64,000 nt of DNA from Ancylomarina euxina (GTDB lineage: Bacteria; Bacteroidota; Bacteroidia; Bacteroidales; Marinifilaceae): the NCBI RefSeq assembly GCF_003863355.1, contig NZ_QQWG01000013.1, positions 1 through 64,000 of the forward strand, in the 5' to 3' direction. Positions 35,037-64,000 of the stretch are shown piece after piece. The position numbers and the translations under genes are program-made. The notes under the pieces were generated by a model. The model saw only the letters and a list, made by a program, of their open reading frames with translations, did no database searches and was not told where the DNA came from. Each line of letters opens with the position of its first letter. The stretch's first letter is position 1.

Positions 35037-35070
35037 AAAAAAAAACAGGAAATGCGGCCACATTCCCTGT
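35037..35070 (-). terminator. Minus-strand intrinsic terminator in FecR-SusC gap (locus A)
   Basis: On the minus strand a 10-bp stem (35061-35070 with 35045-35054, one G-U pair, six-base loop) is followed by eight or nine T. On the plus strand no T-run follows. No annotated minus-strand gene needs it, so it most likely ends an antisense RNA covering the susC leader. Confidence 0.7.
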
Positions 35071-35120
35071 TCCAATATTAACCAACCATTGAAAATTAGA
35101 CTCAATGGTAGTATAAATCT
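35037..35120 (-). ncRNA. Putative cis-antisense RNA to susC A leader
   Basis: Predicted RNA of about 84 nt. Evidence: a minus-strand terminator at 35037-35070; an additional 8-bp hairpin at 35085-35109 (accattga/tcaatggt); and a TAACTTTA element on the minus strand (35134-35127), one base away from the TAnnTTTG -7 consensus, overlapping the susC ATG. The same arrangement is found in loci B and C. The start point is inferred. It resembles DonS-type antisense RNAs described at a susC homologue in Bacteroides fragilis, which repress transporter expression. Confidence 0.45.
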
Positions 35121-35133
35121 AGACCCTAAAGTT

Positions 35134-38100
35134 ATGAAAAAAAACCTGAAGTGGCGGTGTTTATCACCTGCTATTAGAAAAACATTGCTTGTTATGAAGC
35201 TAAGTTTGATATTATTTTTTGCATTTACGATGCAATTGTCAGCATCTGTGCTCCTGGGACAGCAGGTCAGTATACGCACAGGAGAGGCTTCGCTCAGGAC
35301 AGTTTTGGAGGAGTTGAAAGAGCAAACTGGAACCTATTTTATGTACAACGAAGATGATTTGGATGCTTCTATTCGAGTTGAACTTGATATGCAAAATGTG
35401 AGTTTGGAAAAGGCTCTTGATGAAATTTGTAAGCAAGCGCCTTTTAACTATGAAATTATTGAAGATTTTGTTGTCTTAACAAAAAAGGCTCCTGTTATCA
35501 TTAAGGAAGTTAAGCAAGATAAAAAACGACTCAAAGGAACCGTTAAAGACGAAGATGGAAATACTTTACCAGGTGTATCAGTTGTTATTAAGGGAACTTT
35601 AGTTGGAGTCGCTACAGATATCGAGGGTAATTATTCAATTGAATTTGAAGGTAACAACGTGGTATTGGTATACTCATTTGTTGGTATGATAAGTAAAGAA
35701 ATTACTTATTCAGGCCAGGCTGTTCAAAACGTAACTCTTACTGCAGATACAGAACAAATGGATGAAGTAACAGTTTATGGTACAGGATTGACAAAAATTT
35801 CAAAAGAGAGAGCAACCGGGTCCTATAGTGTCATGACACGTGCTGAGATTGAGAATAGCCCTAATGAAGAGATTGGGAGTTCCTTAGAAGGAAATGTTAC
35901 GGGATTGCAAGAAAGCTATAATCCTTCTACTGGTAAAAATGAAATAGCCATTCGAGGAGTCAGTACAATCAATAGTAATTCATCTCCATTAATTGTAGTG
36001 GATGGCTTCCCTGTTGATGGCGATTTTTCAACAATTAATCCTAACGATATTGAGAGCATAACAGTTCTAAAGGATGCCGCAGCTGCTTCTATTTGGGGAG
36101 CCAGAGCCGGGAATGGTGTTATTGTGGTGACAACTAAAAAAGGTAAGAATTCAGGAAAATTCAATATTGATGTAAATTCTTACCTGAAGATTGGTGAAGA
36201 ATTTGATCTGGATTATAATATGGCTCGTGCATCGGTTGATAATCAGTTGAATTACGAGAAATATTTAGTTGATAATGATTATGGAACGTATTGGGGAGTT
36301 CCTGATAATTTACGTGATGCTAATGATGTATACTCTAAAGGAGTACAAGCTTATTTCGATCATAAAAGAGGAGCTATCAGTACATCTGATCTTGATAATA
36401 CAATTGCTCGTTTGAAAGCGACAAATTATGAAGATGATGTAAGGAAGTATTTATTACGTAGACCAGTTACACAGCAGCATAATGTTTCTATTAGCGGAAG
36501 TACTGATAAGGCATCTTATTTTTTGTCAGTCTTGTATAATGATGTAAAAGGGCATTTCCAAGAGTCGGCTAGTGATAAAGTGTTGATAAATTTCAGAAAT
36601 ATTTATCAGATAAATGATAGATTGAGTTTAAGGTTTGGCATAATGTCTGAAATTAAGAAGAGCGATAATAGTGGTAGTGATATAAACACCATCAGAGAGA
36701 TGTCTCCATATGAGAAATTAATTAATGAAGATGGTACATATGCACAAGTTGACTATGGTGTTAATTTTGCATATATGAATACTATAGCTAAAACTGCAAA
36801 CGGTTTACCCTATAATAATTGGGCTTATAATCCAGTTCAGGAAATGTTGAACCGTGATGATATTACGAGGTATAATAATACACGTATTCAAACAGGTTTA
36901 GACTTTAAAATTATTGAAGGCCTGACTTTTTCACCCAGTTTTCAATTCGAACGTTTTTCTTCTAAGAGAAATAATTACAACGGAGAGGATACTTATTTTG
37001 TGCGTAATATGGTTAATGACAACGTTGATTATGATATGTCTACAAATACAGTTTCCAAAACATATGTTCCCAAAGGTGGTATGTTAAATACAAGTGATTC
37101 TAGATCAAAATCATATGATATTCGTAACCAAATTAATTTTGATAAAAAGATTGGAGACGAACATGAGATTAATTTGGTAGCAGCAAGTGAACATGCTTGG
37201 ACTATTACTGAAAGTAATGGAAACACTCTTTATGGATATGATCCTGATAAGAATACACATGCTAATCCTCCTTATGGGTACGGTTCCAGTGCAGTAACCT
37301 GGAATACATTAATTACAAATTCTTATGGAAACCTTTCTTCAGGGCATTCGTTGGGATACTCAAGTACACGATTGTTTTCATTTTTTGCGAATGGGGCCTA
37401 TACTTTCAAGCAAAAATATACTCTAACGGGTAGCTACAGAACAGATGCATCCAATATGATTGTGGATGATCCTAAATTTCGATATTCACCATTTTGGTCA
37501 ATTGGCGGAAGCTGGAATGCTAAGCGTGAATCTTTTCTGCAGCCTGTAAAATTTATTGATCGTTTAATTCTACGTACGACCTATGGGATTTCAGGAAATA
37601 CTGTAACGACAGCGTCTACTGTTCCAGTGATTAGTTTGTCTTCATCACCATCAAATCGTACGGGTGCTCATTATGGTTATGTAAGTGATTTTGGTAATCC
37701 AAATTTGCGTTGGGAGAAAATTAATCAGTTAAATGTAGCTGTTGATTTTTCTATGTTTAATAGAATGCTTTATGGTTCTTTCGAGGTTTATAATAAGCAG
37801 AGTGAAGACTTATTGGCAGAAGTATCTGTGGCTCCAACTTATGGTACTTCAAGACAGATTTTTAATGTAGCTGAGGTATCTAATAAAGGTATCGAGTTGA
37901 ATTTAAATTCTAATTTGAAGTTTGGTGATTTTTCATGGGAAACAGGCTTGCAGTATTCTTATAATACGAGTGAAGTCCTTTCGCTACAAGTCGATCATAT
38001 TTACCCAAAGAATATTTCAAGTAATCGATTCGTAGAAGGTGAATCGGTAGCTCCTGTATACTCATGGGTTTATGGGGGTATGAATGAAGATCATTTACCA

Positions 38101-38694
38101 ACGATTATAGGAGAGAATGGCACTACCTATACGATGAATGAAAACATTGGATCGAATGGTGAAAATGGAGCTGATGTTTTACGAAATATGGGTACTCTTA
38201 TAGCACCTCATGTTCTGGGATGGAGAAATAGTTTTAAGTACAAAGGCTTTACAGCTAGAGCACTTATAACGGCTAAGTTTGGTCATAAGTTTAGACGCAG
38301 TACTCACGATTATGCGATGATTTCCAGAACCAAAAGTTTTTATCATGAAGATTTAAATGGATTGATGGAAGGAAAAGCTGATGAGATGGGTATACCTGCT
38401 TTACCTACAGGATATGAATTCTACAGTTACCGCTGGGCTTGGTATGTACCTCATTTAAATACATTGGTTGAAGATGCCAGTCATATTCGTATTAAAGAAT
38501 TGTATCTGGGGTATGCCTTACCTAAGAAAATCGCCTCATCTATTGGTTTAGACAAACTAACCGTATATGCCCATGCCAGAGATTTAGGGACGATATGGAC
38601 AGCTAATGATAAAGGGATAGACCCTGAATATATAAAAGGAAGTAGGATCAAATCAGGGCCATCATATACATTTGGTTTTAATCTAGGATTTTAA
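35134..38694 (+). CDS. SusC/RagA-family TonB-dependent transporter with STN domain (locus A)
   Basis: Outer-membrane transporter of about 1186 residues. The N-terminal signal is at residues ~10-45, then an STN signalling domain (LRTVLEELKEQTGTYFMYNE), a carboxypeptidase-regulatory-like domain (LPGVSVVIKGTLVGVATDIE), the plug (SKERATGSYSVM; SSPLIVVDGFPVDGDFSTIN; IWGARAGNGVIVVTTKKG) and a C-terminal beta barrel ending in YTFGFNLGF. The ATG at 35134 is preferred to the TTG at 35089. The STN domain couples it to FecR and sigma. It works with the SusD encoded 12 bp downstream. The ligand is unknown; no CAZyme is in the locus. Confidence 0.95.
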   Translation: MKKNLKWRCLSPAIRKTLLVMKLSLILFFAFTMQLSASVLLGQQVSIRTGEASLRTVLEELKEQTGTYFMYNEDDLDASIRVELDMQNVSLEKALDEICKQAPFNYEIIEDFVVLTKKAPVIIKEVKQDKKRLKGTVKDEDGNTLPGVSVVIKGTLVGVATDIEGNYSIEFEGNNVVLVYSFVGMISKEITYSGQAVQNVTLTADTEQMDEVTVYGTGLTKISKERATGSYSVMTRAEIENSPNEEIGSSLEGNVTGLQESYNPSTGKNEIAIRGVSTINSNSSPLIVVDGFPVDGDFSTINPNDIESITVLKDAAAASIWGARAGNGVIVVTTKKGKNSGKFNIDVNSYLKIGEEFDLDYNMARASVDNQLNYEKYLVDNDYGTYWGVPDNLRDANDVYSKGVQAYFDHKRGAISTSDLDNTIARLKATNYEDDVRKYLLRRPVTQQHNVSISGSTDKASYFLSVLYNDVKGHFQESASDKVLINFRNIYQINDRLSLRFGIMSEIKKSDNSGSDINTIREMSPYEKLINEDGTYAQVDYGVNFAYMNTIAKTANGLPYNNWAYNPVQEMLNRDDITRYNNTRIQTGLDFKIIEGLTFSPSFQFERFSSKRNNYNGEDTYFVRNMVNDNVDYDMSTNTVSKTYVPKGGMLNTSDSRSKSYDIRNQINFDKKIGDEHEINLVAASEHAWTITESNGNTLYGYDPDKNTHANPPYGYGSSAVTWNTLITNSYGNLSSGHSLGYSSTRLFSFFANGAYTFKQKYTLTGSYRTDASNMIVDDPKFRYSPFWSIGGSWNAKRESFLQPVKFIDRLILRTTYGISGNTVTTASTVPVISLSSSPSNRTGAHYGYVSDFGNPNLRWEKINQLNVAVDFSMFNRMLYGSFEVYNKQSEDLLAEVSVAPTYGTSRQIFNVAEVSNKGIELNLNSNLKFGDFSWETGLQYSYNTSEVLSLQVDHIYPKNISSNRFVEGESVAPVYSWVYGGMNEDHLPTIIGENGTTYTMNENIGSNGENGADVLRNMGTLIAPHVLGWRNSFKYKGFTARALITAKFGHKFRRSTHDYAMISRTKSFYHEDLNGLMEGKADEMGIPALPTGYEFYSYRWAWYVPHLNTLVEDASHIRIKELYLGYALPKKIASSIGLDKLTVYAHARDLGTIWTANDKGIDPEYIKGSRIKSGPSYTFGFNLGF

Positions 38695-38706
38695 AAGTGT
38701 AAGACT

Positions 38707-40158
38707 ATGAAAAAGATATTATTGATATTATTAGTAGTAGGAATGTTTGCATCTTGTGATAGTTTTCTTGACGAAGCTCCTACTAAAACGACAGCTAAAA
38801 CATTGGAAACTGCTGAAGAATTGGATGCCTTATTTAATGATGTTTATTATTCTTCTAAATCAAATCCGGATTTTTACTGTACAGACAACTTTGACATTCC
38901 TTTAGGTGTTTATAATGAATTCCCGAGTGCTTTTACTTTTGAAGCCATCGAGCAATATTTGTTTGCCACATCAATTGAGGGTGCTAAAGACGCTTGTTGG
39001 GATCATCATTATAATACAGTGTGGTTATGCAATTTAGCTCTAAAAGTAATTGCTGAAAACAGTATTACGGGGGCTGATGATTTAAAAAATCAATTAAAAT
39101 ACGAGGCTCATTTTATTCGTGCAACAGAGTATTTTGCACTGGCTTTAAACTATTGCTTGCATCCAGGTACGAGTACTGAGAGTGAACTAGGTCTACCATT
39201 GAGAGTAGGCGTTGACTTTGAAGAGAGTTTAAGTCGTTCATCTCTGAAAGATACTTATGAATTTATTGAAGCTGATTTGCAGCAAGCTCTTAAAATGGAT
39301 GTGTCACTTGAACGCAATTGGCGAGCTAGTACTGCAGCGGTAGAGGCTTTTGCTGCTCGGTTTTATTTGTATATGGGTGATTTTACTAAAGCTTCTCAGT
39401 ATGCTACTGCAGCTTTGTCTGAACACTCAGAGATGATTGATTATGATTCTGAGTTTTATACAGTTGAAGATGCCAGTGGTCTTGCTTATCCTATGACTAA
39501 CTCGTATCCTTCTTATACAAGTGCTTGGTTAAATTTTTGGACAGGACAATATATGAACCGCTCTATATTTAATCCATCTTGGAAAACTTTACCAAGTCAG
39601 GAGTTGTTGGATTTATATGATCCTTTAGATAAGAGATATGAAATATTTATGGTGGAAAACTATTTGAAACGTTTTGGATTTGAGACAAATCAACATGTGG
39701 GATATATTCAAGGTGGAAATTATGGTGAATGTATTTCAGGCCCTTCCACTTCAGAAATGTTCTTGATTCGTGCAGAAACAAAAGCACGATTGGGGGACAT
39801 TTCAGGAGCTATGGCTGATGTAGAACAAGTTAGAATTAACCGTTTTGCAGCTTCTGATTATACGGCATTGGCATTGCCAAGTGATAAGAAAAGTGCCATT
39901 CAAGCAGTGATTGATGAGCGTCGTCGTGAAATGCCTTTTACCATTCGCTGGTACGATATAAGACGCTTGAATGTGGATTCGGAAACAGATAACATTACTA
40001 TTCGACGTAAGTTTTATCCACTTAATGGGAATCAAGTCAATATGGATGCTGCACCTATAGAATATGTCATTGAACCAGACTCGCGTTTATTTGCACGCCC
40101 ACTGAACTCTGGCGTTATTAATCTTAGTGAAGGTCAAACAGTTCAAAATGAATATTAA
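38707..40158 (+). CDS. SusD/RagB-family surface lipoprotein (locus A)
   Basis: A 483-residue lipoprotein (MKKILLILLVVGMFASC, lipobox FASC) that caps the SusC channel from the cell surface and binds ligand. The N-terminal helical SusD-like domain (SFLDEAPTKTTAKTLETAEE) and the C-terminal RagB/SusD domain (GPSTSEMFLIRAETKARLGD; VIDERRREMPFTIRWYDIRR) with helix-repeat features are present. It starts 12 bp after susC and overlaps no other gene. Its sugar- or peptide-binding residues cannot be identified by eye. Confidence 0.94.
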   Translation: MKKILLILLVVGMFASCDSFLDEAPTKTTAKTLETAEELDALFNDVYYSSKSNPDFYCTDNFDIPLGVYNEFPSAFTFEAIEQYLFATSIEGAKDACWDHHYNTVWLCNLALKVIAENSITGADDLKNQLKYEAHFIRATEYFALALNYCLHPGTSTESELGLPLRVGVDFEESLSRSSLKDTYEFIEADLQQALKMDVSLERNWRASTAAVEAFAARFYLYMGDFTKASQYATAALSEHSEMIDYDSEFYTVEDASGLAYPMTNSYPSYTSAWLNFWTGQYMNRSIFNPSWKTLPSQELLDLYDPLDKRYEIFMVENYLKRFGFETNQHVGYIQGGNYGECISGPSTSEMFLIRAETKARLGDISGAMADVEQVRINRFAASDYTALALPSDKKSAIQAVIDERRREMPFTIRWYDIRRLNVDSETDNITIRRKFYPLNGNQVNMDAAPIEYVIEPDSRLFARPLNSGVINLSEGQTVQNEY

Positions 40159-40186
40159 TATTGGGAATTTTATTAAAACAACGAAA

Positions 40187-47738: not shown

Positions 47739-48305
47739 ATGTTTACCCCGCAAGACTTTGACTTATTTCGCAAAGGCGACAGACAGGCTTTCAAGTGTAT
47801 TTTTGACACGTTTTATAAAGCATTGCTGATTTTTGCAAAAAAATATGTGCAGGACAATGATTTGGCCGAAGACTTGGTACAAGAAGTTTTGGTAAAACTT
47901 TGGGAAAAGAGGAAAACCATAGAGGATGCTTCAACCATAAAGGCTTTCTTGTATATGAGTGTGAAAAATAAAGCACTGAATTATTTTCGTCATCAAAAAG
48001 TAATTGACGCTCATCAGAAAGAGATCTTACTGGATAAGTCGAATGAGCTTTTCTTTAAGAATCATTTAATAGAAGAAGAAACCTATCGTTTGCTGGTACA
48101 GGCCATTGACGATTTGCCTGAGCAGACCCGAAAGGTGTGTACTTTGAGCATGAATGGGGCAAAGAATGCACAAATTGCTGAAGAACTCGATTTATCAACC
48201 AGTACGGTGAAATACCACAAAAATCAAGCGATTACCATTCTAAGAGAACGCTTAAAGGATCAACTTTTTCTATTACCGCTATTGGCTCACCTTCTCGATT
48301 TGTAA
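47739..48305 (+). CDS. ECF sigma factor, FecI-like (locus B)
   Basis: A 188-residue ECF sigma factor with region 2 (DNDLAEDLVQEVLVKLWEK) and region 4 (NAQIAEELDLSTSTVKYHKN). It is the first gene of locus B and is followed at 226 bp by its FecR partner. A candidate promoter lies at 47677-47707. Its DNA-binding helix differs from the locus A factor (STSTVKYHKNQA against SVNTVKTHYSRA), so it may recognise its own target promoters. Confidence 0.93.
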   Translation: MFTPQDFDLFRKGDRQAFKCIFDTFYKALLIFAKKYVQDNDLAEDLVQEVLVKLWEKRKTIEDASTIKAFLYMSVKNKALNYFRHQKVIDAHQKEILLDKSNELFFKNHLIEEETYRLLVQAIDDLPEQTRKVCTLSMNGAKNAQIAEELDLSTSTVKYHKNQAITILRERLKDQLFLLPLLAHLLDL

Positions 48306-48531: not shown

Positions 48532-49731
48532 ATGATGAGCACTACCAAAGCACATATTAAAATTTCAAAACTCATTTACAAAGAGAGAACTGATTTGTTA
48601 AGCGAGTCGGAAACTGATTTTCTCAATGTATGGAAAAATGAGTCGGACGAAAATCGAACTATTTATGAGAGACTCAGCCAGGACTTGGATCTTGAATCAA
48701 AGAAAGAGGAGTACAATCAAATTGATCTGGGTGAAGCCTGGAAAAAATTGGAACCCCAATTAAAGGCAGAAACAAAAGTGCGAACCCTGTTTAAAGAGTT
48801 CGTTCGCTATGCTGCCATTTTAATTCTGCCTTTGGCAATAGGGGGGTATTTGGTTTATCATGCCATCGATTCGGTAGAAAGCTACGATGAAATTCTGGTG
48901 GATAACATCAAACCTGGCACACAAAAAGCCACTTTGGTTTTGGCCAATGGTGAAATGATCGATCTTGAAGACCAGCAGAACAGCTTGATAAAAACCCCAG
49001 AAGGAGATCAGTTAAATAATAGCAATCATAAACTGTCCTACAATAGTGAACAGTTGGCCGAAATGAAAACTAAGTGGCATCGTCTGGTCGTACCCAAAGG
49101 TGGGGAGTACCAGTTACAGCTTTCTGATGGTACTCAGGTTTGGCTCAACTCCGATTCTGAATTAAAATATACCGACAGGTTTGTTGGGAAAGACCGCATT
49201 GTGCACTTGAAAGGTGAAGCCTATTTCGATGTGGCAGAGGATAAAGCACACGCCTTTATTGTAAAAACCAACACTATGGATGTCAAGGTATATGGTACCG
49301 AGTTTAATGTGATGGCCTATGAGGATGAGGAAGCTGTATATACGACTCTGGTTGAAGGAAGTGTTGGTGTCGACCTGAAAAATGAGACAGGCATTGTTGA
49401 GAAGATGATGCTGAAAACCAATATGCAAGTTGCTTATAATAAAGGAGCCTTGAAAGGAGAGGTTAGAACGGTTGATACTGGTTTATATACAGGCTGGAAA
49501 GATGGACGATTCCAGTTTAATGATGAAGATTTGGGAAGTATTCTTCGTAAACTATCCAGATGGTACGATGTGAAGGTCTTCTTCCAGAATTCTACAATTC
49601 AAAATATACGTTTTACGGGGGAAATGAAACGTTTCGATGATTTTTCAACCATCCTGGATTTATTGGAACTGGGATCGGATGTTGAGTTTCAAGTTAAAGG
49701 AAATGTACTAACTGTTAATCAAAAAATATAA
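48532..49731 (+). CDS. FecR-family anti-sigma factor (locus B)
   Basis: A 399-residue inner-membrane anti-sigma factor. The cytoplasmic sigma-binding part is residues ~1-85; the transmembrane helix is FVRYAAILILPLAIGGYLVY; the periplasmic FecR domain includes VVPKGGEYQLQLSDGTQVWL and GEAYFDVAEDKAHAFIVKT; the C-terminal DUF4974 has LGSILRKLSRWYDVKVFF and an MKRFDDFSTILDLLELGS end. Similar in length and layout to the locus A and C proteins. It would respond to the STN domain of the next gene's SusC. Confidence 0.93.
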   Translation: MMSTTKAHIKISKLIYKERTDLLSESETDFLNVWKNESDENRTIYERLSQDLDLESKKEEYNQIDLGEAWKKLEPQLKAETKVRTLFKEFVRYAAILILPLAIGGYLVYHAIDSVESYDEILVDNIKPGTQKATLVLANGEMIDLEDQQNSLIKTPEGDQLNNSNHKLSYNSEQLAEMKTKWHRLVVPKGGEYQLQLSDGTQVWLNSDSELKYTDRFVGKDRIVHLKGEAYFDVAEDKAHAFIVKTNTMDVKVYGTEFNVMAYEDEEAVYTTLVEGSVGVDLKNETGIVEKMMLKTNMQVAYNKGALKGEVRTVDTGLYTGWKDGRFQFNDEDLGSILRKLSRWYDVKVFFQNSTIQNIRFTGEMKRFDDFSTILDLLELGSDVEFQVKGNVLTVNQKI

Positions 49732-49739: not shown

Positions 49740-49776
49740 AAAAGAAAACCCGAAAAATGCGACAACACTTTTCGGG
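49740..49776 (-). terminator. Minus-strand intrinsic terminator in FecR-SusC gap (locus B)
   Basis: 8-bp perfect stem (cccgaaaa/ttttcggg, 49749-49756 and 49769-49776) followed on the minus strand by TTTTCTTTT. On the plus strand it is followed by cagttaaaag, with no T-run. It probably ends a short antisense RNA. Confidence 0.6.
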
Positions 49777-49817
49777 CAGTTAAAAGAATACATGCGGTAT
49801 TCTTAGTTTAACCTTAA
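49740..49817 (-). ncRNA. Putative cis-antisense RNA to susC B leader
   Basis: Predicted RNA of about 78 nt, read from near 49817 to the terminator at 49740. It would include a strong hairpin at 49779-49812 (outer stem gttaa/ttaac and inner stem aagaatac/gtattctt, loop atgcg). A perfect TAnnTTTG -7 element (TAAATTTG) lies on the minus strand at 49831-49824, overlapping the susC start codon. No good -33 element was found. Confidence 0.45.
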
Positions 49818-49830
49818 TCATTACAAATTT

Positions 49831-52800
49831 ATGAAAAAAAACTGGAATTGTCATTTCCTTCCGACAAGAGGGAAATGGCAGAAGAACTATTGGATTATGA
49901 GGAATTTTATTATTCTATTTTTGGCACTCAACCTAAGTGCTTTTGCTAATGGACTTTCACAGGAGGTTTCTTTAGTCCGGTACGAGAATGCCACGCTAAT
50001 TGAAGTGTTCGAAGATATCAAAGTACAAACGGGTTATGGTATTCTTTACAAGATACAGGATATTAATCCTGATATCAGAGTGAATATGAATATGGAAAAT
50101 TCGAGTGTACAGAAAATTCTTATGGATGTACTGGAAGGAACCAGCCTGGATTATAAGGTACAGGATGAGGTGATTGTGATATTTAAAGCTGAGAAAATCG
50201 TTCAACCCCAGGCAACAAGCCAGCAAAAGGAAAAAATAGAAATCAAGGGAACCGTTACCGATAATAAGGGCGAAACCCTGCCAGGCGTGTCAGTTGTTGT
50301 AAAAGGGACGTCGACTGGAGTGGCAACAGATATTGATGGTAATTATTTTATCCAATTTGAGAATGAAAATGCCGTCTTAGTATTCTCCTTTGTAGGAATG
50401 CTTGCTCAGGAGATTGCTTACAATGGACAATCAGTTCAGAATGTGATCCTATTAGCTGATGCAGAACAAATGGCTGAGATTGTGGTTACTGGGTATCAAA
50501 CTATTTCGAAAGAAAGAGTAACAGGATCATTTGCTAAAATAGACAATGAAGTATTGGAGCAGCGCCCGGTAATGAGTTTGGTTGAACGATTGGAAGGGAC
50601 TGTAGCCGGATTAAATGTGGTTAATGGTAAAATTCAAATTCGTGGGGTGAGTACGCTTTATGCCAACGATGAGGTTTTATTTATTGTTGATGGCTTTCCC
50701 ATTGAAGGTGATCTGTCTTCAATTAACCCTGAAGATATTGAGTCGGTAACCGTATTGAAAGATGCTTCGGCTGCTTCTATTTGGGGTGTACGAGCAAGTA
50801 ATGGTGTTGTGGTTGTTGCAACCAAAAAAGGAAAGAAGAATGAGGAACTGAATGTAAGTTTTTCTACTCATTTAGGCATTACAGAAAAGATCGATTATTC
50901 AAAAATGAACTATATGTCAACCTCTGATCATATTGATGTGAATAGAGAATTTCTAGATAAGGGTTGGAGTGTTAATCAGATATTACTAGGACAACAGCAA
51001 GGTGTTAGTTTATACGATGAAGCTTGGTTGCATCTGCAAGATAAGACACCTGATGGAGATGTATGGTCGCAAGGACAATTCAATAAATATGTAGATAATT
51101 TACGAACTAAGGATGTTGAAAAACAATGGGAGAAATACCTGTTAAGAAATGCAATGAGCTCGATCTATAACCTGTCACTATCAGGAGGTGGTGATAAAAA
51201 TACATTTTACAGCTCTCTTGTTTATAACGATAACTTAGGTTCATCCATAGGGAGTTCATCTCAGAATTTTACATTTAGTTTACAGGACACTTATCAGTAT
51301 AACGATAAACTTAGTTTTATTGTAGGTGTAACAGGTTCGCTGAATGAAATCAAGGCGAATGGTGTTGACCCAGCTCTTATCGCTATTCAACATCCTTACG
51401 ATGAGTTAGTTGATGAGAACGGACAAACCATACAATATTACAAGACAAGAGACCGATGGACCTCTCTGCAAAGAGAAGCTCTACCTGGTATTGGGTCCTA
51501 TGGCTTTAATCAATTGGACGAACAAAGAAATACTGATAAGAGCAACGAAAGGTTTTCAATTCGTGCCAAATTTGGCTTGGATTATAAGATTCTTGAGAAC
51601 TTAACTTTTTCTTCAAGCTTTCAGTACGAGAAAGAAAATAATAATGTAGATCAGTATAATTCCATGAGCTTGCCCAGTCATAGAATAAGGTTGAATGAGT
51701 TCTTTAAAAATGGAGAATCACAGCTACCTTTAGGGACGGAGTATCTATTGGAAAGATCAGAGGTAAAAGCCTGGGATTTTAGAAATACTATGACTTGGGA
51801 TAAAGAGTGGACCGACCATAAACTAAATGTATTTGCTGGGACTGAAATCAGAAAGAGAACCTGGGGTACTTTCAGCGATAAAAAGTATGGTTACGATAAG
51901 CAGTCTACAACGTCGATACCTGTTAATCAGGAAAAGTTTATAGGTGGTGAAATAAGTGATTGGAAAGGAAATAATAGGTTGTATGATACATTTTATAGAA
52001 CCTCCAATACAGATCTAAGGGAATTTTCTATGTTTTCAAATATTGGTTACGAGTTTAAAGAAAAATACTCTTTAACAGCCAGTTTTCGTGTCGATCAAAA
52101 GAATCTGTTTGGTAGCGATCCTGATTTCAGATATAAACCTCTATGGTCGACAGGTATTGGATGGAATATGGCCAAAGAGGATTTTATGCAGGATATTGAT
52201 TTTGTTAATCGATTGAGACTTAGGGCAACATATGGTATAAACGGAAATGCGAGTAATCAATACTCTCCATACGCACAAGCTGAAAGTAAATTTCAAGTTT
52301 TGGTTGGAAACCAGTATAAGTATTTACGTTTATCTCAGGCAGCTAATGAAAAATTGAAGTGGGAAGAAACCGCCGTATTTAATGTCGGAGTTGATTTTGC
52401 CTTGCTAAATAACAAATTGAATGGTAGCATTGAATACTATTCGCGAAACAGTTCTGATTTATTAGGAATTGTAGATTTAGATCCTACCACAGGTTTTACC
52501 TATGCAGTAATGAATTATGCTTCTATGCAAAATAGAGGGCTTGAATTAAATCTAAATGGGACGCTTCTGCAAAAAGGTGATTTTACCTGGACTTCGAATC
52601 TGAATTTTTCTTATAACAAAAACAAAGTTACAGATATTTTGGAGAAAAGACCTGCCTATTCGATTGTTAATAGAGGAAAGCTAGCTGTTGGAGAGTCTGT
52701 TAATAATATCTACAGCTACAATTATGCAGGTCTGGATTCAAATGGAGATATGTTATTGTATAATACAGATGGAACCACTAAAGCAAGAAAAGATGCTGAC

Positions 52801-53373
52801 CTTTATGGTGCATTCCCCGAAGAAGAATTAATTTATAATGGTGAATCAGTTGCTCCTTACTATGGTGGTTTGTCCAATACTTTTTCCTATAAAAATCTCG
52901 ATATAAGTATTAACCTAAGCTATAAGTTCGGACATAAATTCCGCCATAATTATGGCGATATAACTAATGGTGCAACTGGCACAATGATTCAAGATCACTG
53001 GGTAGACAGATGGCAAGAGCCAGGCGATGAATTAAAAACCAGAGTCCCTAGGATTAGTTATTTTGGGAAAAATCCTTCAACAGTAGAAAATGAAGGCTTT
53101 GAAAAAATGTTTTATGATGATATAGCTTATAGATATTCACAAGATAATGTTTATGATGCGGCTTTTATTAGAGTTAGAGATATTATATTAGCTTATACTG
53201 TGTCTGATAATCTTTTGAATCAAAGTTTTATTAAGAGTTTAAAATTAACGGCTCAGGTTACCAATCCTTTTCTGTGGGTAGCCAATAAAGAAGGCTTTGA
53301 TCCTGAGGCTTACAGAGGAATGGCATACGATAATTTAAAAACATTCACCTTTGGCTTAAAGGCTAAATTTTAA
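49831..53373 (+). CDS. SusC/RagA-family TonB-dependent transporter with STN domain (locus B)
   Basis: Outer-membrane transporter of 1180 residues with a signal segment near residues 24-45 (NFIILFLALNLSAFANGLSQ). An STN domain follows (ATLIEVFEDIKVQTGYGILY), then a carboxypeptidase-regulatory-like domain (LPGVSVVVKGTSTGVATDID), the plug (TISKERVTGSFAKIDNEVLE; EVLFIVDGFPIEGDLSSINP; IWGVRASNGVVVVATKKG) and the barrel ending FTFGLKAKF. It shares a 44-bp identical DNA stretch with the locus C susC (50296-50339). It works with the following SusD. The ligand is unknown. Confidence 0.95.
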   Translation: MKKNWNCHFLPTRGKWQKNYWIMRNFIILFLALNLSAFANGLSQEVSLVRYENATLIEVFEDIKVQTGYGILYKIQDINPDIRVNMNMENSSVQKILMDVLEGTSLDYKVQDEVIVIFKAEKIVQPQATSQQKEKIEIKGTVTDNKGETLPGVSVVVKGTSTGVATDIDGNYFIQFENENAVLVFSFVGMLAQEIAYNGQSVQNVILLADAEQMAEIVVTGYQTISKERVTGSFAKIDNEVLEQRPVMSLVERLEGTVAGLNVVNGKIQIRGVSTLYANDEVLFIVDGFPIEGDLSSINPEDIESVTVLKDASAASIWGVRASNGVVVVATKKGKKNEELNVSFSTHLGITEKIDYSKMNYMSTSDHIDVNREFLDKGWSVNQILLGQQQGVSLYDEAWLHLQDKTPDGDVWSQGQFNKYVDNLRTKDVEKQWEKYLLRNAMSSIYNLSLSGGGDKNTFYSSLVYNDNLGSSIGSSSQNFTFSLQDTYQYNDKLSFIVGVTGSLNEIKANGVDPALIAIQHPYDELVDENGQTIQYYKTRDRWTSLQREALPGIGSYGFNQLDEQRNTDKSNERFSIRAKFGLDYKILENLTFSSSFQYEKENNNVDQYNSMSLPSHRIRLNEFFKNGESQLPLGTEYLLERSEVKAWDFRNTMTWDKEWTDHKLNVFAGTEIRKRTWGTFSDKKYGYDKQSTTSIPVNQEKFIGGEISDWKGNNRLYDTFYRTSNTDLREFSMFSNIGYEFKEKYSLTASFRVDQKNLFGSDPDFRYKPLWSTGIGWNMAKEDFMQDIDFVNRLRLRATYGINGNASNQYSPYAQAESKFQVLVGNQYKYLRLSQAANEKLKWEETAVFNVGVDFALLNNKLNGSIEYYSRNSSDLLGIVDLDPTTGFTYAVMNYASMQNRGLELNLNGTLLQKGDFTWTSNLNFSYNKNKVTDILEKRPAYSIVNRGKLAVGESVNNIYSYNYAGLDSNGDMLLYNTDGTTKARKDADLYGAFPEEELIYNGESVAPYYGGLSNTFSYKNLDISINLSYKFGHKFRHNYGDITNGATGTMIQDHWVDRWQEPGDELKTRVPRISYFGKNPSTVENEGFEKMFYDDIAYRYSQDNVYDAAFIRVRDIILAYTVSDNLLNQSFIKSLKLTAQVTNPFLWVANKEGFDPEAYRGMAYDNLKTFTFGLKAKF
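50296..50339 (+). repeat. 44-bp exact repeat shared with susC C
   Basis: Identical to 62631-62674 over all 44 bases, in the regulatory-like domain codons (VVKGTSTGVATDID). The flanking DNA is diverged at synonymous positions, so the identity is more than protein conservation would require and points to recombination or gene conversion. Confidence 0.85.
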
Positions 53374-53378: not shown

Positions 53379-54800
53379 ATGATGATGAAAAATATATATA
53401 TCATACTCATCGCTATATTGCTGAGCTCATGTAGCGCTGATGAATTTCTTGATGTGAAACCTACCGGAGTTGTTATTCCTGAGTCGGTTAATGATTTTGA
53501 TATGCTTATGCAATCTCCTACTATGCATAGATCTAACTGGACTAACTTAAATTATTGGGATCCTGATGTCTTGCTCAGCGACAAAATGTTGAATTTAATT
53601 CAGTCTTCCAAAAGTCTGGTGAATCAATACAAATGGGCTGAAAATATTTATTCTGTTAGTGAAAATGATGAGGACTGGAATATACTGTATAGTAATATAT
53701 ATGTCTATAATACAATTATCAAAGAGATTGATGATGCGCCATTAGGTCTTCTTACCGAGACGGATAGAATAAGAGTCAAAGGAGAAGCCTATGGACAAAG
53801 AGCTATGGAATATTTTTTGTTGGCCTGTGAATATGTTCCGGCCTATTCAACTGACACAAAAGATAAGCTGGCTATCCCCATGCCAATGGAAGCAAATATT
53901 ACGGTTGATATTCCAAAATCAACAGTAGGCGAAATTTATAACCAGATTCTATCTGACTTAAAAGTAGCAGCTCCTTTATTGGAAAATGCCCCGGCAATTA
54001 ATCAGGAAGCAAATTTTAGACCTGGTCTTGCATCTGTTAAGGGCTTGCTTGCATTAGTCAGCTTGCATATGGGGGATTTTGCTGCTGCAAAAACGTATTC
54101 AAGTGAAGCTTTGGTTTTGTATAATCACTTGTATGATTATACGACTTTTTCGAATAAAAGACCTGGTGATGCCTGGTCTGGATTAAATATTGATGATTTC
54201 ACTTTAGGATTAAATGATAAATCAGTCATTTGGAGTCGCATTAATCAATGGTCATACTCTTTCCCTTACGATGGGCATTTATACCATCCTGATTTACGAG
54301 CCTTGTTTGATCAGGTTAACGACCAAAGATACATCTTATTCTCTAGTTCAAAAGCGAACCCTAATTCGGGTTTTGGCGATCTTACCGTGAGTCCGAATGT
54401 TGCTTATGCTAGTAAAGATAAAGCATCACAAGCAGGTCTATCTGTAGCGAACTTAACTTTGGTTCAGGCTGAAGCTTGTATTAGAACGAATGATAAAGAT
54501 GGAGCGGTAAATGCTTTAAATACATTATTAGTAAAAAGAATAAAGAGTTTTACACCCTTAGTAGCTTCTGATTTTGCTGATAATACGGCTGTTCTGAATA
54601 AAGTAAAGCAAGAAAGACGTAAAGAATTAATGGCAACAGGTAATTATTTGATTGACTTAAAACGATACCATGCTTTGGGAGAATCGATACCAACATTTAC
54701 ACGTGTAATCAATTCAAAAACGCACACATTAGAACCAGGGAGTTCTAAGTACGCATTACCAATTCCATTGAAAGTTCAGGCATTAAATTCTAATCTTTAA
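53379..54800 (+). CDS. SusD/RagB-family surface lipoprotein (locus B)
   Basis: A 473-residue lipoprotein (MKNIYIILIAILLSSC, lipobox LSSC) with the SusD N-terminal signature DEFLDVKPTGVVIPESVNDF and the RagB/SusD C-terminal helical region ending RRKELMATGNYLIDLKRYHA. Three consecutive ATG codons occur at the start; the first is used here. It starts 5 bp after susC, so translation is likely coupled. It should form the SusCD complex with the transporter just upstream. Confidence 0.94.
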   Translation: MMMKNIYIILIAILLSSCSADEFLDVKPTGVVIPESVNDFDMLMQSPTMHRSNWTNLNYWDPDVLLSDKMLNLIQSSKSLVNQYKWAENIYSVSENDEDWNILYSNIYVYNTIIKEIDDAPLGLLTETDRIRVKGEAYGQRAMEYFLLACEYVPAYSTDTKDKLAIPMPMEANITVDIPKSTVGEIYNQILSDLKVAAPLLENAPAINQEANFRPGLASVKGLLALVSLHMGDFAAAKTYSSEALVLYNHLYDYTTFSNKRPGDAWSGLNIDDFTLGLNDKSVIWSRINQWSYSFPYDGHLYHPDLRALFDQVNDQRYILFSSSKANPNSGFGDLTVSPNVAYASKDKASQAGLSVANLTLVQAEACIRTNDKDGAVNALNTLLVKRIKSFTPLVASDFADNTAVLNKVKQERRKELMATGNYLIDLKRYHALGESIPTFTRVINSKTHTLEPGSSKYALPIPLKVQALNSNL

Positions 54801-59562: not shown

Positions 59563-59589
59563 TTCCTACAGACCTTATAACTTTTTATA

Positions 59590-59781
59590 ATGAAAAACGA
59601 TTATATAGGGCTCATATTTGGATGTCCTCTTTGTATGAAAGAGAGTGTATGTCCTTTTCAAATGTTTCGAAAGGAGAAGGATATGAGGATACGACTTAGG
59701 ATGTGGGAGGCTATGGACCTTATCGGTTTTTCAGATAAACTAAGATTTCATGAGCTTTGTTTTGAGAAAAATAAACTATAA
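59590..59781 (+). CDS. Small Cys-rich protein
   Basis: A 63-residue protein with four conserved-looking Cys (FGCPLCMKESVCPFQ; HELCFEK) plus a His, and a basic helical middle (FRKEKDMRIRLRMWEAMDL). The CxxC-x5-C and H-x2-C spacing could bind zinc. Similar short CPF/HxxCF proteins occur in Bacteroidota, but I recall no function. The start is an ATG 27 bp after a terminator. Coding status is moderately supported. Confidence 0.5.
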   Translation: MKNDYIGLIFGCPLCMKESVCPFQMFRKEKDMRIRLRMWEAMDLIGFSDKLRFHELCFEKNKL

Positions 59782-60237
59782 ATAGAATCTCCCTTCAGAT
59801 TCCCAAATACTTGTTTTCATGGCTACCTTCAACATCTCAGTCAAAAATATCATGAATCTGAATTAAATATTATATTGGAAGCTAGCTACACTACGGGGGT
59901 GTTTTTTTCGTTTTTATAAATTTAATCTGTCTAGAAGATTTTCCTTTTTTAAATTCATCTCTAAGGCGGGCGAGGAGCGTATAATCCAATTTAGTTTTGT
60001 GCTTCATTTACCCAATTTAATCGAATAGGTGTCTTATAGGTATAAGCAGGTATTTAGTACAATGAAAATCATGAGGTTTCAATCCTTTTAGTTGATTTCT
60101 TTTTCTTATATTTCTCTTGGGTGAGGCCTTCAATTTTCACGTTTATTTAAGTTTTTTTTAGAAATTCGTGCACTTTTATCACCCATTTCAAAAACTAAAC
60201 GAGTATTATAATAAGCTTTAAGCCTAAATCCGATTTT
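59782..60237. other. 456-bp intergenic region before locus C
   Basis: A/T-rich gap. It contains a decayed copy of the gggggtg hairpin core with a T8 tail near 59892-59912. No ORF or RNA gene is supported. The locus C sigma promoter should lie in its last 150 bp but I could not place it. Confidence 0.45.
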
Positions 60238-60771
60238 TTGAAAAAACTACTGATCAATAAGGCCATACTCGAAGAACTCTTTAAGGAAAACTATAAGGGT
60301 TTGTATTATCATGCCTATAGTTTTACCAATGACTCCGATGTGTCAAAAGATATTGTGAATGATGTTTTCGAATTAATCTGGAAAAAAAGAGACAATATTG
60401 ATATCACCTACTCCATAAAGTCTTTGCTCTACAGTATGACGAAAAATAAGGCCATCAATTATTTACGTCATGAAGAAGTGAAGAAAAAATACAGCGACTA
60501 TAAAATCGATTCTTCTGAAATGGTAGAAGAAGATTATAGAGACCATGAAGCGCTCATTACTAAAATTAAAGCAGCGATTGAAGAACTTCCTCCACAAGGT
60601 CGTATCATCTTTAAAATGTGTTTTATAGAGAATAGACGTTATAAAGAGATTGCTGAAGAGTTAGACCTGTCAGTGAATACCGTTAAAACACATATTTCCA
60701 AATCGCTTAAGCGCTTGCGCAATGATTTCTCAGGAGAAATACTTTTGTTTTTTATTTCTACAAAAAAATAA
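60238..60771 (+). CDS. ECF sigma factor, FecI-like (locus C)
   Basis: A 177-residue ECF sigma factor with region 2 (SDVSKDIVNDVFELIWKKRD) and region 4 (YKEIAEELDLSVNTVKTHIS). The start is a TTG at 60238: no in-frame ATG lies between it and the upstream stop codon, and the first downstream ATG would remove part of region 2. FecR follows after 136 bp. Confidence 0.9.
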   Translation: MKKLLINKAILEELFKENYKGLYYHAYSFTNDSDVSKDIVNDVFELIWKKRDNIDITYSIKSLLYSMTKNKAINYLRHEEVKKKYSDYKIDSSEMVEEDYRDHEALITKIKAAIEELPPQGRIIFKMCFIENRRYKEIAEELDLSVNTVKTHISKSLKRLRNDFSGEILLFFISTKK

Positions 60772-60907
60772 TAAAAAGATATCACCCTTTTTTGTTTTTT
60801 GCTGTGTTAGTAATAGAGAGCAATTGAAAAATGGATCAAATCCGAAAATTATGTTTTCTTTTATTCCTGTTTCATCCTAACGGGAATCGTTTTATAAAAA
60901 ATATCAA

Positions 60908-62083
60908 ATGAAATATCAACACGAAGATATAGAGAAGATCATACAGCTTTTTAATAAGCCTAAGGGTAAAATAGCCCAGTTTCTTGTCGATAATAAAGAC
61001 GATAAGGAGCTTGTGAGCTTGTATCACGAACTTAGAAAGAATAAGGAGGCTTTATTAGATGTTGAGAAAATTGACATGCCTAATGTTGAGTTGGAATGGC
61101 AAAGAATAAGGTATAGTATCCAGAAGAAGCAAAAACGTAAGTGGTTTCGGATGATCGCTGCCAGTCTTGTGCTTATATTATCGGTGAGCTTTCTTTTGGT
61201 ATTCGAATTGCCCCTTACGTCTTATGATCCTATCGCACAAACTATGGATAGCATTATTCATGGTAGTTCTAAGGCTATTTTAACAACCTCTACAGGAGAA
61301 AGTCATTATTTAGATGGGAGTAAGGACTTAAGCATAAATGAACAATCTGGTATTGAAATTTTAGCTGGAACGGATAAACGTATTTCATACAAATATCAGA
61401 ACGGACAGGATAGTGTCGTAGAGAAAATGGTTTTTAACTCGCTTAAAACACCACGAGGAGGCGAATATCAAATCGTTTTGGCAGATGGCACAAAGGTTTG
61501 GCTGAACTCAGAATCAGAACTGAAATACCCTCTTAAGTTTATTGAGAATGAAAGAGCTGTAGAACTAATTGGTGAGGCTTATTTCGAGGTCGCAAAAAAT
61601 CCGGAACAAACCTTTATTGTAAAAACCCATCATGTGAATACCAAAGTGCTGGGAACGCATTTTAATGTGTGTGCCTATCCCAACGAAGATGCCAATATTA
61701 CACTTGTTGAAGGCAAGGTCGGTTTGGAAAATAAGCTAACAGGAAACGAACATCTATTATCACCTGGCGAAAATGCAAAGCTTGAGACTAGTAGTAGAGA
61801 ATTGTTGATTTCTCAAGTCGATGTGAAAAAATACACCGCATGGCGTAACGGCTATTTTTATTTTGAACGAGAGAGACTCGAAGATATTCTTTTGAAACTT
61901 GAACGCTGGTACGACTTTAAAGTCTTTTATCAGAATGCCAATGTGAAAGATTTTGAGTTTAGAATGAGAGCCGACCGAACCGTGAGTTTCGATGAGGTGA
62001 TTAAACGATTGGAACTAACAGGAAGAATAAATATCAGTGTGAAAGGAAAGGCCCTTGTGATATCGGATGTAAATAGAAACTAA
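60908..62083 (+). CDS. FecR-family anti-sigma factor (locus C)
   Basis: A 391-residue inner-membrane anti-sigma factor. Cytoplasmic part to ~residue 78, transmembrane helix FRMIAASLVLILSVSFLLVF, periplasmic FecR domain with KTPRGGEYQIVLADGTKVWL and GEAYFEVAKNPEQTFIVKT, and C-terminal DUF4974 (LEDILLKLERWYDFKVFY; SFDEVIKRLELTGRINI). It pairs with the preceding sigma factor and the STN-bearing SusC that follows. Confidence 0.93.
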   Translation: MKYQHEDIEKIIQLFNKPKGKIAQFLVDNKDDKELVSLYHELRKNKEALLDVEKIDMPNVELEWQRIRYSIQKKQKRKWFRMIAASLVLILSVSFLLVFELPLTSYDPIAQTMDSIIHGSSKAILTTSTGESHYLDGSKDLSINEQSGIEILAGTDKRISYKYQNGQDSVVEKMVFNSLKTPRGGEYQIVLADGTKVWLNSESELKYPLKFIENERAVELIGEAYFEVAKNPEQTFIVKTHHVNTKVLGTHFNVCAYPNEDANITLVEGKVGLENKLTGNEHLLSPGENAKLETSSRELLISQVDVKKYTAWRNGYFYFERERLEDILLKLERWYDFKVFYQNANVKDFEFRMRADRTVSFDEVIKRLELTGRINISVKGKALVISDVNRN

Positions 62084-62091
62084 ACCAAAAT

Positions 62092-62118
62092 AAAAAAAGG
62101 GATAGTTGGAGCTATCCC
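62092..62118 (-). terminator. Minus-strand intrinsic terminator in FecR-SusC gap (locus C)
   Basis: 7-bp perfect stem (gggatag at 62099-62105 with ctatccc at 62112-62118, loop ttggag) followed on the minus strand by seven T. The plus strand continues taataaag, without a T-run. Confidence 0.7.
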
Positions 62119-62130
62119 TAATAAAGTAAC

Positions 62131-62152
62131 ATTCATTCTTGGAGGAATGAAT
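62131..62152 (+). promoter_or_regulatory. Leader hairpin 2 of susC C (loop TTGGAG)
   Basis: 8-bp perfect stem with the six-base loop ttggag (62139-62144), identical to the loop at 62106-62111 in the neighbouring hairpin. It ends 25 bp before the susC start codon. Confidence 0.65.
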
Positions 62153-62177
62153 TATTATTAATCTTCATGACAAATTT

Positions 62178-64000
62178 ATGAAAAAAAAACTAACCATTCC
62201 TTTATCTACATGGGATAAAGGAAAAAGAAAACGCTTTTTTATGCGCTTAGGCTTATTAAAATTAATGCTGATTTTTGGATTGATGAGTACGCATGCCAAT
62301 GTGAATTCACAGACGATTATCTCGAAATTAAAACTCGAAGAAGTTGAACTATCAGAGGCTTTGGAGCGTATTGAAGAACTCAGCTCTTACGATTTTGTCT
62401 TTAACTACAATGATCTTAAAGGCTACAAGGTTTCAGTAGATTTGGAAGAAACAAGCCTTGAGAATTGTTTAGATCAAGTTTTGAGAGAAGTACCCTTTGA
62501 ATACCAGACTAAAGGTGATGTGGTGGTTATTTCTTATAAGAAAAAATCTGCACCCATTCAGCAAGAAAAAAGAGAAATCAAAGGAAAGGTCACTGATGAA
62601 AATGGCGAAACTTTACCTGGTGTATCAGTCGTTGTAAAAGGGACGTCGACTGGAGTGGCAACAGATATTGATGGGAATTATGCTATTCAATTTGACCATG
62701 AAAATGCAGTCTTGGTTTTTTCTTTTGTTGGGATGGTTCAGCAAGAGATAGCTTATCATGCTCAAAGTAGTTTGAATGTTGTATTGCAATACGATACTGC
62801 AAATTTGGAAGAAGTTGTTGTTACTGGTTATCAAACTATATCTAAAGAGCGTGCGACTGGGTCTTTTGAGAAAGTTGATTCGAAACAAATTGAAAAACCG
62901 GTTTCTGATATTAGCGAAAGATTGGTAGGAACAGTAACTGGTCTTCAACAAGTGAGAGACCCTAGTGGTGATGTAAGGTTTGAAATAAGGGGACAATCTT
63001 CAATTACAACACCTAATGTTGGGGTATCACAACCACTCGTTGTTGTAGATGGATTTCCTATTGAGGGCGATTTTAAAACTGTAAATCCAAATGATATTGA
63101 AAGTGTTACAATATTGAAAGATGCAGCAGCAACTTCAATATGGGGAGCGCGTTCTGCTAATGGTGTGATAGTTATTACTACAAAAAAGGGCTCAACAAAA
63201 AATAAAGCAAAAGTTGAATTTAGTTCTTTCTGGAAATTCAAAAATAAACCGAATCTTAGAAAAACTCTTAATAGACTATCCAGTGCAGATCAAATAGAAT
63301 TGGAGAAATATGTATATACCACTGAGAATAATTACGGTGAACGTGGGTATATTCCATATTACAGCTCAATAAGTGATAATAATGGCCATGTTGCAATGGG
63401 TGATTTATCAGCCGGACAACTTGCTTTTAACGAACATTATCTGGGTAAAATAACATTGCAAGAAAGAGATAATAGGCTGTCTGCTTTATCTAAATTGGAT
63501 AATACGAAGCAAATAGAGAAATATTTATTACAGCAAAATTTTACGCAACAATATAATTTAGCTGTTTCTGGTGGAAATGATAAAATGAATAACCGTTTAT
63601 CATTAATGTTTGAAGATCGTAAGGGTGATAATAAAAATAATGATCTGAAGAAATACATGGTAAATTATAAACTAAATTATAAGATATTAAAAAATTTAGA
63701 TTTTTCTTTTAATGGGACTTTAAATTATAATAATGAGGAATATAATGGAAGTGGTTCAAAGATATATAATTCATATTCACCTGTAGCTTATGCTAAAGGT
63801 GTGGCACCCTACCAGATGTTAAAAAATGCTGATGGTTCACTGGCTAGATGGTCTAACGGGGTAATGACAAAATGGGGTATTAGTGGAAGCAGTACAACTA
63901 TTTATGGGCCAAATTTTGCCAGATATATAGCTCCAATAAAAGATAAATTTCCCTATCAGGATTGGACCTTTAATCCTATAGAGGAAATAAATGCAAGAGA
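62178..64000 (+). CDS. SusC/RagA-family TonB-dependent transporter with STN domain, 5' part (locus C)
   Basis: The frame opens at the ATG at 62178 and remains open for 607 codons to the window edge, so the gene is cut by the window, not broken. Signal segment LGLLKLMLIFGLMSTHANVN, then STN domain (LSEALERIEELSSYDFVFNY), carboxypeptidase-regulatory-like domain (LPGVSVVVKGTSTGVATDID), the plug (TISKERATGSFEKVDSKQIE; VVVDGFPIEGDFKTVNPNDI; IWGARSANGVIVITTKKG) and the start of the barrel. The SusD partner should follow outside the window. It shares 44 identical bases with the locus B susC. Confidence 0.93.
   Translation, partial: MKKKLTIPLSTWDKGKRKRFFMRLGLLKLMLIFGLMSTHANVNSQTIISKLKLEEVELSEALERIEELSSYDFVFNYNDLKGYKVSVDLEETSLENCLDQVLREVPFEYQTKGDVVVISYKKKSAPIQQEKREIKGKVTDENGETLPGVSVVVKGTSTGVATDIDGNYAIQFDHENAVLVFSFVGMVQQEIAYHAQSSLNVVLQYDTANLEEVVVTGYQTISKERATGSFEKVDSKQIEKPVSDISERLVGTVTGLQQVRDPSGDVRFEIRGQSSITTPNVGVSQPLVVVDGFPIEGDFKTVNPNDIESVTILKDAAATSIWGARSANGVIVITTKKGSTKNKAKVEFSSFWKFKNKPNLRKTLNRLSSADQIELEKYVYTTENNYGERGYIPYYSSISDNNGHVAMGDLSAGQLAFNEHYLGKITLQERDNRLSALSKLDNTKQIEKYLLQQNFTQQYNLAVSGGNDKMNNRLSLMFEDRKGDNKNNDLKKYMVNYKLNYKILKNLDFSFNGTLNYNNEEYNGSGSKIYNSYSPVAYAKGVAPYQMLKNADGSLARWSNGVMTKWGISGSSTTIYGPNFARYIAPIKDKFPYQDWTFNPIEEINAR
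62631..62674 (+). repeat. 44-bp exact repeat shared with susC B
   Basis: Second copy of the 44-base identical stretch at 50296-50339, in the same codons of the regulatory-like domain. The corresponding part of susC A (near 35586) differs at many synonymous and some nonsynonymous sites. Confidence 0.85.

Follow-up and report, generated by a model that had tools for sequence, protein, structure and literature searches.

Three times within 64,000 nucleotides, Ancylomarina euxina carries a gene for a FecR-type anti-sigma factor directly followed by a gene for a SusC transporter, which raises the question of what the short gaps between the two genes encode. We analysed positions 1 to 64,000 of contig NZ_QQWG01000013.1 (assembly GCF_003863355.1), referred to here as the window, in which all three gaps run from FecR to SusC on the plus strand, between fecR stops at 35000, 49731 and 62083 and susC ATGs at 35134, 49831 and 62178. 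A first-pass annotation of this DNA had predicted an antisense RNA in each gap, comparable to DonS of Bacteroides fragilis. According to our preferred reading, to which we assign a probability of roughly 0.7, each leader encodes a cis-antisense RNA that would pair with its target via kissing loops and thereby hold down the transporter operon. The anatomy of the leaders, the strand of their first hairpin, its conservation and the constraints on its loop are present in the sequence itself.

On the plus strand each gap showed the same order of elements, namely the fecR stop, an A-run, a first hairpin (H1), a second hairpin (H2), a short A/T-rich stretch, the motif CAAAnnT or a near match to it, and the ATG. 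Read on the minus strand, the same gap is by its sequence a complete small transcription unit: it opens with a -7 box, continues through a short 5' tail to H2 and then H1, and closes with a T-run. The elements of the three leaders are the following:

35037 to 35122, minus strand: predicted antisense RNA 1, with its 5' end at 35122 and its 3' end in the T9 run, both predicted from the positions of the -7 box and the terminator.
35044 to 35071, minus strand: H1 terminator hairpin 1, loop CGGCCA on plus and TGGCCG on minus, the same in relative L107.
35037 to 35045, minus strand: T9 run of terminator 1 (A9 on plus).
35085 to 35109, no strand assigned: H2 hairpin 1, 8 bp.
35127 to 35134, minus strand: -7-like box 1, TAACTTTA, over the susC ATG, last base off consensus (A for G), the same in L107.
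35005 to 35032, no strand assigned: extra hairpin beyond predicted antisense RNA 1, its loop CGGCCA equal to the H1 loop.
49740 to 49819, minus strand: predicted antisense RNA 2, both ends predicted.
49749 to 49776, minus strand: H1 terminator hairpin 2, loop CGACAA on plus, with the near-inverse TTGGCG in relative L101.
49740 to 49748, minus strand: run of terminator 2, TTTTCTTTT (plus-strand A-run AAAAGAAAA).
49784 to 49804, no strand assigned: H2 hairpin 2, 8 bp.
49824 to 49831, minus strand: -7-like box 2, TAAATTTG, over the susC ATG.
62092 to 62166, minus strand: predicted antisense RNA 3, both ends predicted.
62098 to 62119, minus strand: H1 terminator hairpin 3, loop TTGGAG on plus.
62092 to 62098, minus strand: T7 run of terminator 3 (A7 on plus).
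62131 to 62152, no strand assigned: H2 hairpin 3, 8 bp, its loop TTGGAG equal to the H1 loop; both read TTGGTG in relative L050.
62171 to 62178, minus strand: -7-like box 3, TAAATTTG, over the susC ATG.

These elements confirmed three claims of the first-pass annotation with correct coordinates: a terminator working only on the minus strand in each gap, a second stem of about 8 bp toward susC, and a minus-strand TAnnTTT(G/A) element over each susC ATG. The 9 nt 3' of H1 on the plus strand contained 3, 2 and 2 T in leaders 1, 2 and 3. Since PMC9723704 places the box at -12 to -5, we set the start 5 nt past the box, so that the antisense RNAs are predicted to start about 12 nt ahead of the susC ATG and to measure 86, 80 and 75 nt. 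Fold z-scores of the minus RNAs were -5.28 (35037-35120), -5.23 (49740-49820) and -4.22 (62090-62167), with none of 200 shuffles equally stable in each case; the plus-strand leaders gave -2.97, -3.51 and -3.19, with 1, 0 and 1 shuffles equally stable. The extra hairpin at 35005-35032 has a counterpart in relative L107, where GCGGCCAC is kept despite diverged flanks.

The minus-only terminators were far more frequent in these gaps than elsewhere in the genome (G000, 4.4 Mb), which holds 26 SusC matches above the cut-off plus one split match, 15 FecR matches and, judged by position, 11 SusC genes directly after a FecR gene. Coverage comprised 20 fetched stretches and the window, with genes called by a crude open reading frame script, one SusC (C25) left out and hairpin thresholds of our own. 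In this terminator scan 9 of the 11 FecR-SusC pairs were scored, and a minus-only terminator was present in 9/9 of their gaps vs 9/121 other same-strand gaps, for which reason we do not regard these terminators as chance. Gaps ahead of SusC without FecR had one in 1 of 6 scored cases. The remaining two FecR-SusC pairs (window 62084 and L003), missed by the gene caller, carry the same hairpin and A-run.

Both strands of a DNA hairpin can fold alike, yet a G-U pair in one RNA corresponds to an A-C mismatch in the RNA of the opposite strand. Strand use can therefore be read from wobble pairs. For this we used relatives from 100 regions, the best by E-value among the matches listed; rows from G000 were removed first, as were four more, three of them close to a contig end and one by oversight. 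A SusC match lay downstream in 96 of the regions, and a start with a gap of 40-400 nt was found in 79. With H1 picked by a strand-symmetric score, trimmed to its outermost G-C pair and counted in one leader per cluster (73 clusters), the wobble cells split into 47 that fitted the minus RNA and 5 that fitted the plus RNA (p 1.3e-9). A control with 24 plus-directed terminators, drawn from all same-strand gaps of G000 and selected for T-rich 3' and A-poor 5' flanks, gave 1 minus-fitting and 24 plus-fitting cells, which validates the test. The bias recurred in unclustered counts from four genomes reached via named loci (36 minus, 1 plus) and from a second sample of 81 new leaders, 61 of them with an H1 (45 minus, 7 plus). 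The 9-nt flanks pointed the same way: the flank before H1 contained 6 or more A in 39 of 86 leaders, and the flank after it contained 6 or more T in 2 of 86. Stem sequences differ widely among leaders. H1 thus has a GC-containing stem, and its T-run and wobble pairs agree on the minus strand; judged by these sequence features, it is an intrinsic terminator used on the minus strand. The hairpins and T-runs were conserved among homologues, on which the first-pass annotation had staked its reading, and that reading is not refuted.

Its authors had cautioned that the -7-like box might be the usual A-rich start context of Bacteroidota genes. This concern was answered by counts over the fetched parts of G000 and the relatives' leaders: CAAAnnTATG, the complement of TAnnTTTG laid over a start codon, occurred at 68 of 90 FecR-SusC starts vs 2 of 276 other starts in the fetched G000 parts, and one of those two belongs to another SusC with an H1-like hairpin (L012). 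The consensus TAnnTTTG is given in PMC7366714, PMC9723704 and PMC12632263, and an extended form, TANNTTTGY, in the last of these. In 81 distinct sequences the box columns were C in 76%, A in 90, 97 and 92%, two freer positions and T in 93%; these percentages lean to the box, as sequences were aligned on it where present, which leaves the count of 68/90 unaffected. The base preceding the C was A in 71%, fitting the extended form. Poly-A in the first codons of the window susC genes doubles as a T-rich stretch upstream of the antisense -7 box. By eye, the ATG of some Bacteroides and Parabacteroides loci (L212, L219, L221, L223, L231, L234 and L242) lies in the loop of an inverted repeat, formed by CAAAG ahead of the start codon and CTTTG some 15 nt later.

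The H1 loops are unusual for terminators. For all counts of loop size, YUNR motif, loop sharing, inversion and twin loops, and for the wobble count of the second sample, the choice of H1 preferred an A-rich 5' flank; leader anatomy, the 73-cluster wobble test and the four-genome counts were made without this preference. Loops of 6-7 nt occurred in 118 of 130 leaders with a mean GC of 0.56, and ordinary G000 terminators had them in 21 of 84 with a mean GC of 0.26. YUNR stood at the loop 5' end on either strand in 65 of 108 distinct H1 tips vs 12.7 in shuffles that preserve base composition only (0/5000 as high); the second sample gave 30 of 50. At the level of the family, the H1 loops thus carry the YUNR motif of U-turn kissing-loop antisense RNAs. 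The commonest 6-nt loops among 62 distinct tips were CTGCAA (6), CGCCAA (6) and TTGGCG (5), and of 120 distinct tips 26 were of TTG type, 25 of CAA type, 2 both and 67 neither.

Loop sequence was kept in some comparisons and turned around in others. Pairs of similar leaders with equal loop length had an identical loop in 21 of 39 cases. In two groups the loop was nearer to the inverse of the relative's loop than to that loop itself, one base off exact inversion: CGACAA (G000, L067, L078) vs TTGGCG (L101), with nearly identical flanks, and GTACCAG (L021) vs TTGGTAC (L072), a pair barely above the similarity cut-off. An inverted loop keeps the complementarity of sense and antisense, but a fixed partner that reads one strand would no longer recognise it. 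In 16 of 122 leaders one 6-mer, read in the same direction, occurred at the tips of both H1 and H2, where 2000 permutations gave a mean of 1.25 and at most 6; the count is unclustered and includes relatives (62177 with L050, L105 with L119). Kissing of H1 with H2 inside one RNA was rejected, as the inverted relation occurred in 1 of 122 leaders vs 1.28 expected. Distinct loops per genome numbered 33/35, 23/23, 15/15 and 21/21 in four genomes.

We further asked how far this design extends among Bacteroidota. From at least 596 named SusC loci we took the best 80, ranked by similarity to the window SusC, 75 of which were usable and five without a usable start; "without FecR" here means that no FecR lay in the upstream DNA examined, at most about 2.5 kb. 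FecR-linked loci (n=30) showed the box in 16, the minus terminator in 15 and both in 11, and loci without FecR (n=45) showed 2, 2 and 0. Loci with box and terminator came from Marinifilum, Odoribacter, Chitinophaga, Arachidicoccus, Pedobacter, Cellulophaga, Flavobacterium, Sinomicrobium and a Prolixibacteraceae genome. A sample anchored on FecR in four genomes (18/31, 11/19, 18/69 and 13/107 FecR places used, with a leader obtained from 44 of 60 regions) gave box and terminator in 4/9 and 6/9 leaders of Bacteroides xylanisolvens, 6/9 and 6/9 of B. oleiciplenus, 11/16 and 10/16 of Parabacteroides goldsteinii, and 5/10 and 7/10 of Chitinophaga ginsengisegetis. Together the 18 leaders of the two Bacteroides genomes, counted as sequences and not as named transcripts, had the box in 10, the minus terminator in 12 and both in 6. 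The sequences thus indicate that in Bacteroides, Parabacteroides, Chitinophaga and Flavobacteriaceae many leaders between FecR and SusC have a common design, and that FecR linkage predicts such leaders well. Two SusC genes without an adjacent FecR also belong here: L012 (SusC start at oriented position 14053) passed the terminator scan and has the box, and L011 (start at oriented position 10852) has a similar hairpin behind an A-run, judged by eye. FecR is therefore a strong, not an absolute, marker.

The first-pass annotation had considered the antisense RNAs new for a locus type without carbohydrate-active enzymes (CAZymes). Indeed, no glycoside hydrolase, polysaccharide lyase or carbohydrate esterase domain was found in the 19 window proteins of the Pfam scan (SusC 3 and genes beyond the window lie outside it). 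Since FecR is predictive and two Bacteroides genomes also carry such leaders, CAZyme absence is probably not what sets these leaders apart.

The leaders suggest the following course of transcription, pairing, repression, titration and trigger. An antisense RNA of about 75-86 nt would be initiated from a -7 box of the Bacteroidota housekeeping type, situated over the susC start codon, and would then run back through the leader, fold H2 and H1 and end at the H1 terminator, being complementary to the susC 5' leader until about 12 nt before the ATG. Sense and antisense transcripts would both expose the H1 loops (and also those of H2), and the GC-containing H1 loops of 6-7 nt would make the first contact as a kissing complex. 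Pairing would spread from the loops and either block ribosome loading on susC or open the mRNA to cleavage, keeping the transporter operon low until transcription under the extracytoplasmic function (ECF) sigma factor yields so much mRNA that the antisense RNA is titrated.

Several observations weigh against this reading. The exact box is absent from 22 of the 90 leaders, including the first of the window, where it is off consensus. The minus strand yielded no -33 element, but neither could one be identified in Flavobacterium johnsoniae (PMC7366714). Four of the 90 leaders lack a scoring hairpin. H2 showed no strand preference (6 minus vs 7 plus wobble cells) and was rejected as a strand-specific element. 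YUNR is missing in about 40% of H1 loops; of the window loops CGGCCA, CGACAA and TTGGAG, the third alone has it at the 5' end (TTGG); and among ordinary terminators with loops of 6-7 nt it stands at the loop opening, counting either strand, in 8 of 21, the SusC leader L012 included, so that the motif is enriched, not exclusive. Outside the family, about half to two thirds of FecR-linked leaders pass. In B. thetaiotaomicron some antisense RNAs correlate negatively and others positively with their polysaccharide utilization locus (PUL) (PMC10994844). Private loops, as in plasmid incompatibility, were sought in two samples: loop-sharing pairs numbered 0/381 within vs 69/7970 between genomes in the first (permutation p 0.11) and 2/877 vs 9/2282 in the second. 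As neither result was significant, we do not claim such selection.

Other explanations account for part of the pattern. An antisense RNA might be made and act by transcription itself, with polymerase from the promoter on the susC start codon colliding with or blocking the sense polymerase and the terminator shielding fecR from read-through. The -7 box over the ATG and a terminator straight after fecR fit this, but GC-containing loops of 6-7 nt with U-turn motifs would be unnecessary, as would matching loops on H1 and H2 (16 of 122 leaders, against a permutation mean of 1.25); we consider this explanation unlikely. It is quite unlikely, too, that the loops serve a reader other than their own sense partner, be it a trans-acting RNA or a protein (an RNA chaperone like RbpB, for instance). 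Two hairpins that present one loop in one orientation would fit a binder that is a dimer, and RbpB binds many Bacteroides small RNAs (PMC11697453). But nearly every sampled locus in a genome has its own loop, and the TTG and CAA orientations are about equally frequent (26 and 25 of 120); a single reader of fixed sequence and of one strand would permit neither. The constant loop architecture combined with variable loop sequence favours recognition between RNAs over recognition by protein.

The hairpins might instead act in the sense mRNA, as an attenuator or as a processing or stability element between fecR and susC, the minus terminator signal being incidental. Here the folding of both hairpins also on the plus strand (z -2.97 to -3.51) and the lack of strand bias in H2 agree, but the H1 wobble cells (47 minus vs 5 plus), the flanks (39/86 vs 2/86) and the co-occurring minus-strand -7 box do not, and we rate this explanation improbable. 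Ordinary bidirectional or chance terminators are scarcely credible: T-rich sequence does lie on both sides in a few leaders, and terminators directed to the minus strand also occur in 20 of the 121 other same-strand gaps, in 9 of these as minus-only terminators, but a frequency of 9/9 vs 9/121 and the recurrence of the design in other families speak against them. What stands of the first-pass interpretation is one predicted antisense transcription unit per leader, indicated by the terminator, the wobble strand, the box, conservation, the DonS-type place and the approximate size.

The genes flanking the three gaps, all on the plus strand, are the following:

33798 to 35000, plus strand: FecR-type anti-sigma factor 1, with an ECF sigma factor at 33022-33573.
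35134 to 38694, plus strand: SusC 1 with STN, CarbopepD_reg_2 and plug domains, and SusD at 38707-40158.
48532 to 49731, plus strand: FecR-type anti-sigma factor 2, with an ECF sigma factor at 47739-48305.
49831 to 53373, plus strand: SusC 2, with SusD at 53379-54800.
60908 to 62083, plus strand: FecR-type anti-sigma factor 3, with an ECF sigma factor at 60238-60771.
62178 to 64000, plus strand: SusC 3, continuing past the window end (match G000:C7:62574-65891).

The SusCD loci are accompanied by thioredoxin-like genes. Each of the SusC frames starting at 35134, 49831 and 62178 has a second ATG after 20-22 codons, ahead of the hydrophobic signal stretch. The only Rfam match in the whole window at the gathering threshold was a tRNA gene at 22831-22904 on the minus strand.

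Antisense RNAs at susC homologues are already known in B. fragilis and B. thetaiotaomicron, and the predicted window RNAs are probably new members of this group. PUL-associated antisense RNAs are 78-128 nt long and antisense to susC homologues (PMC7366714), close to the 86, 80 and 75 nt predicted here opposite the susC 5' region; ten and later 32 such RNAs were annotated in B. thetaiotaomicron (PMC7366714, PMC10994844). DonS represses an N-glycan PUL by a mechanism called unknown (PMC11697453). The same source ties host-glycan PULs in general to ECF sigma and anti-sigma control, and the parts of PMC7366714 and PMC10994844 cited here do not use the term anti-sigma. The box and terminator in FecR-SusC leaders of two Bacteroides genomes agree with the DonS-type setting; unlike it, the window genome lies outside the genus Bacteroides, and its SusCD loci have thioredoxin-like genes and no CAZyme domain among the scanned proteins. 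The likeness to DonS is one of position and layout, and the cited parts of PMC7366714, PMC10994844 and PMC11697453 describe no loop rule. No report of kissing loops in DonS-type RNAs stood among the titles and abstract openings of the open-access papers listed. Within what could be checked, both the loop rules and the link to FecR in several families count as new. The trans-acting FopS and GibS of Bacteroides are likewise small RNAs, and FopS acts on a susC-type mRNA; unlike the window RNAs, FopS acts in trans and has a single-stranded 5' stretch with a conserved seed (PMC11697453).

The arrangement tracks FecR-linked SusC in several families of the phylum, also where no CAZyme domain was found, and suggests a concrete mechanism, with the terminator hairpin as kissing loop, for the DonS-type RNAs. 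More tentatively, and at slightly less than even odds, FecR/ECF-linked SusC genes of many Bacteroidota might share an old chromosomal switch resembling copy control, in which the terminator hairpin serves as a near-private, invertible, sometimes doubled kissing loop, often with a U-turn, inversion being harmless since nothing but the complementarity of sense and antisense would count. If so, this would provide the DonS family with a mechanism, and also with a code that sets which leaders an antisense RNA can touch. Plasmid copy-control RNAs (ColIb-P9 Inc RNA with repZ, R1 CopA with CopT) meet their own leader through hairpin loops in a kissing complex; unlike them, the leaders described here are chromosomal, stand over a nutrient transporter and would place the kissing loop within the terminator hairpin; the proposed likeness is one of function, and no homology is claimed. 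The title of Asano 1998 names 5'-rUUGGCG-3' as the loop motif of ColIb-P9 Inc RNA, and TTGGCG is among the commonest H1 loops.

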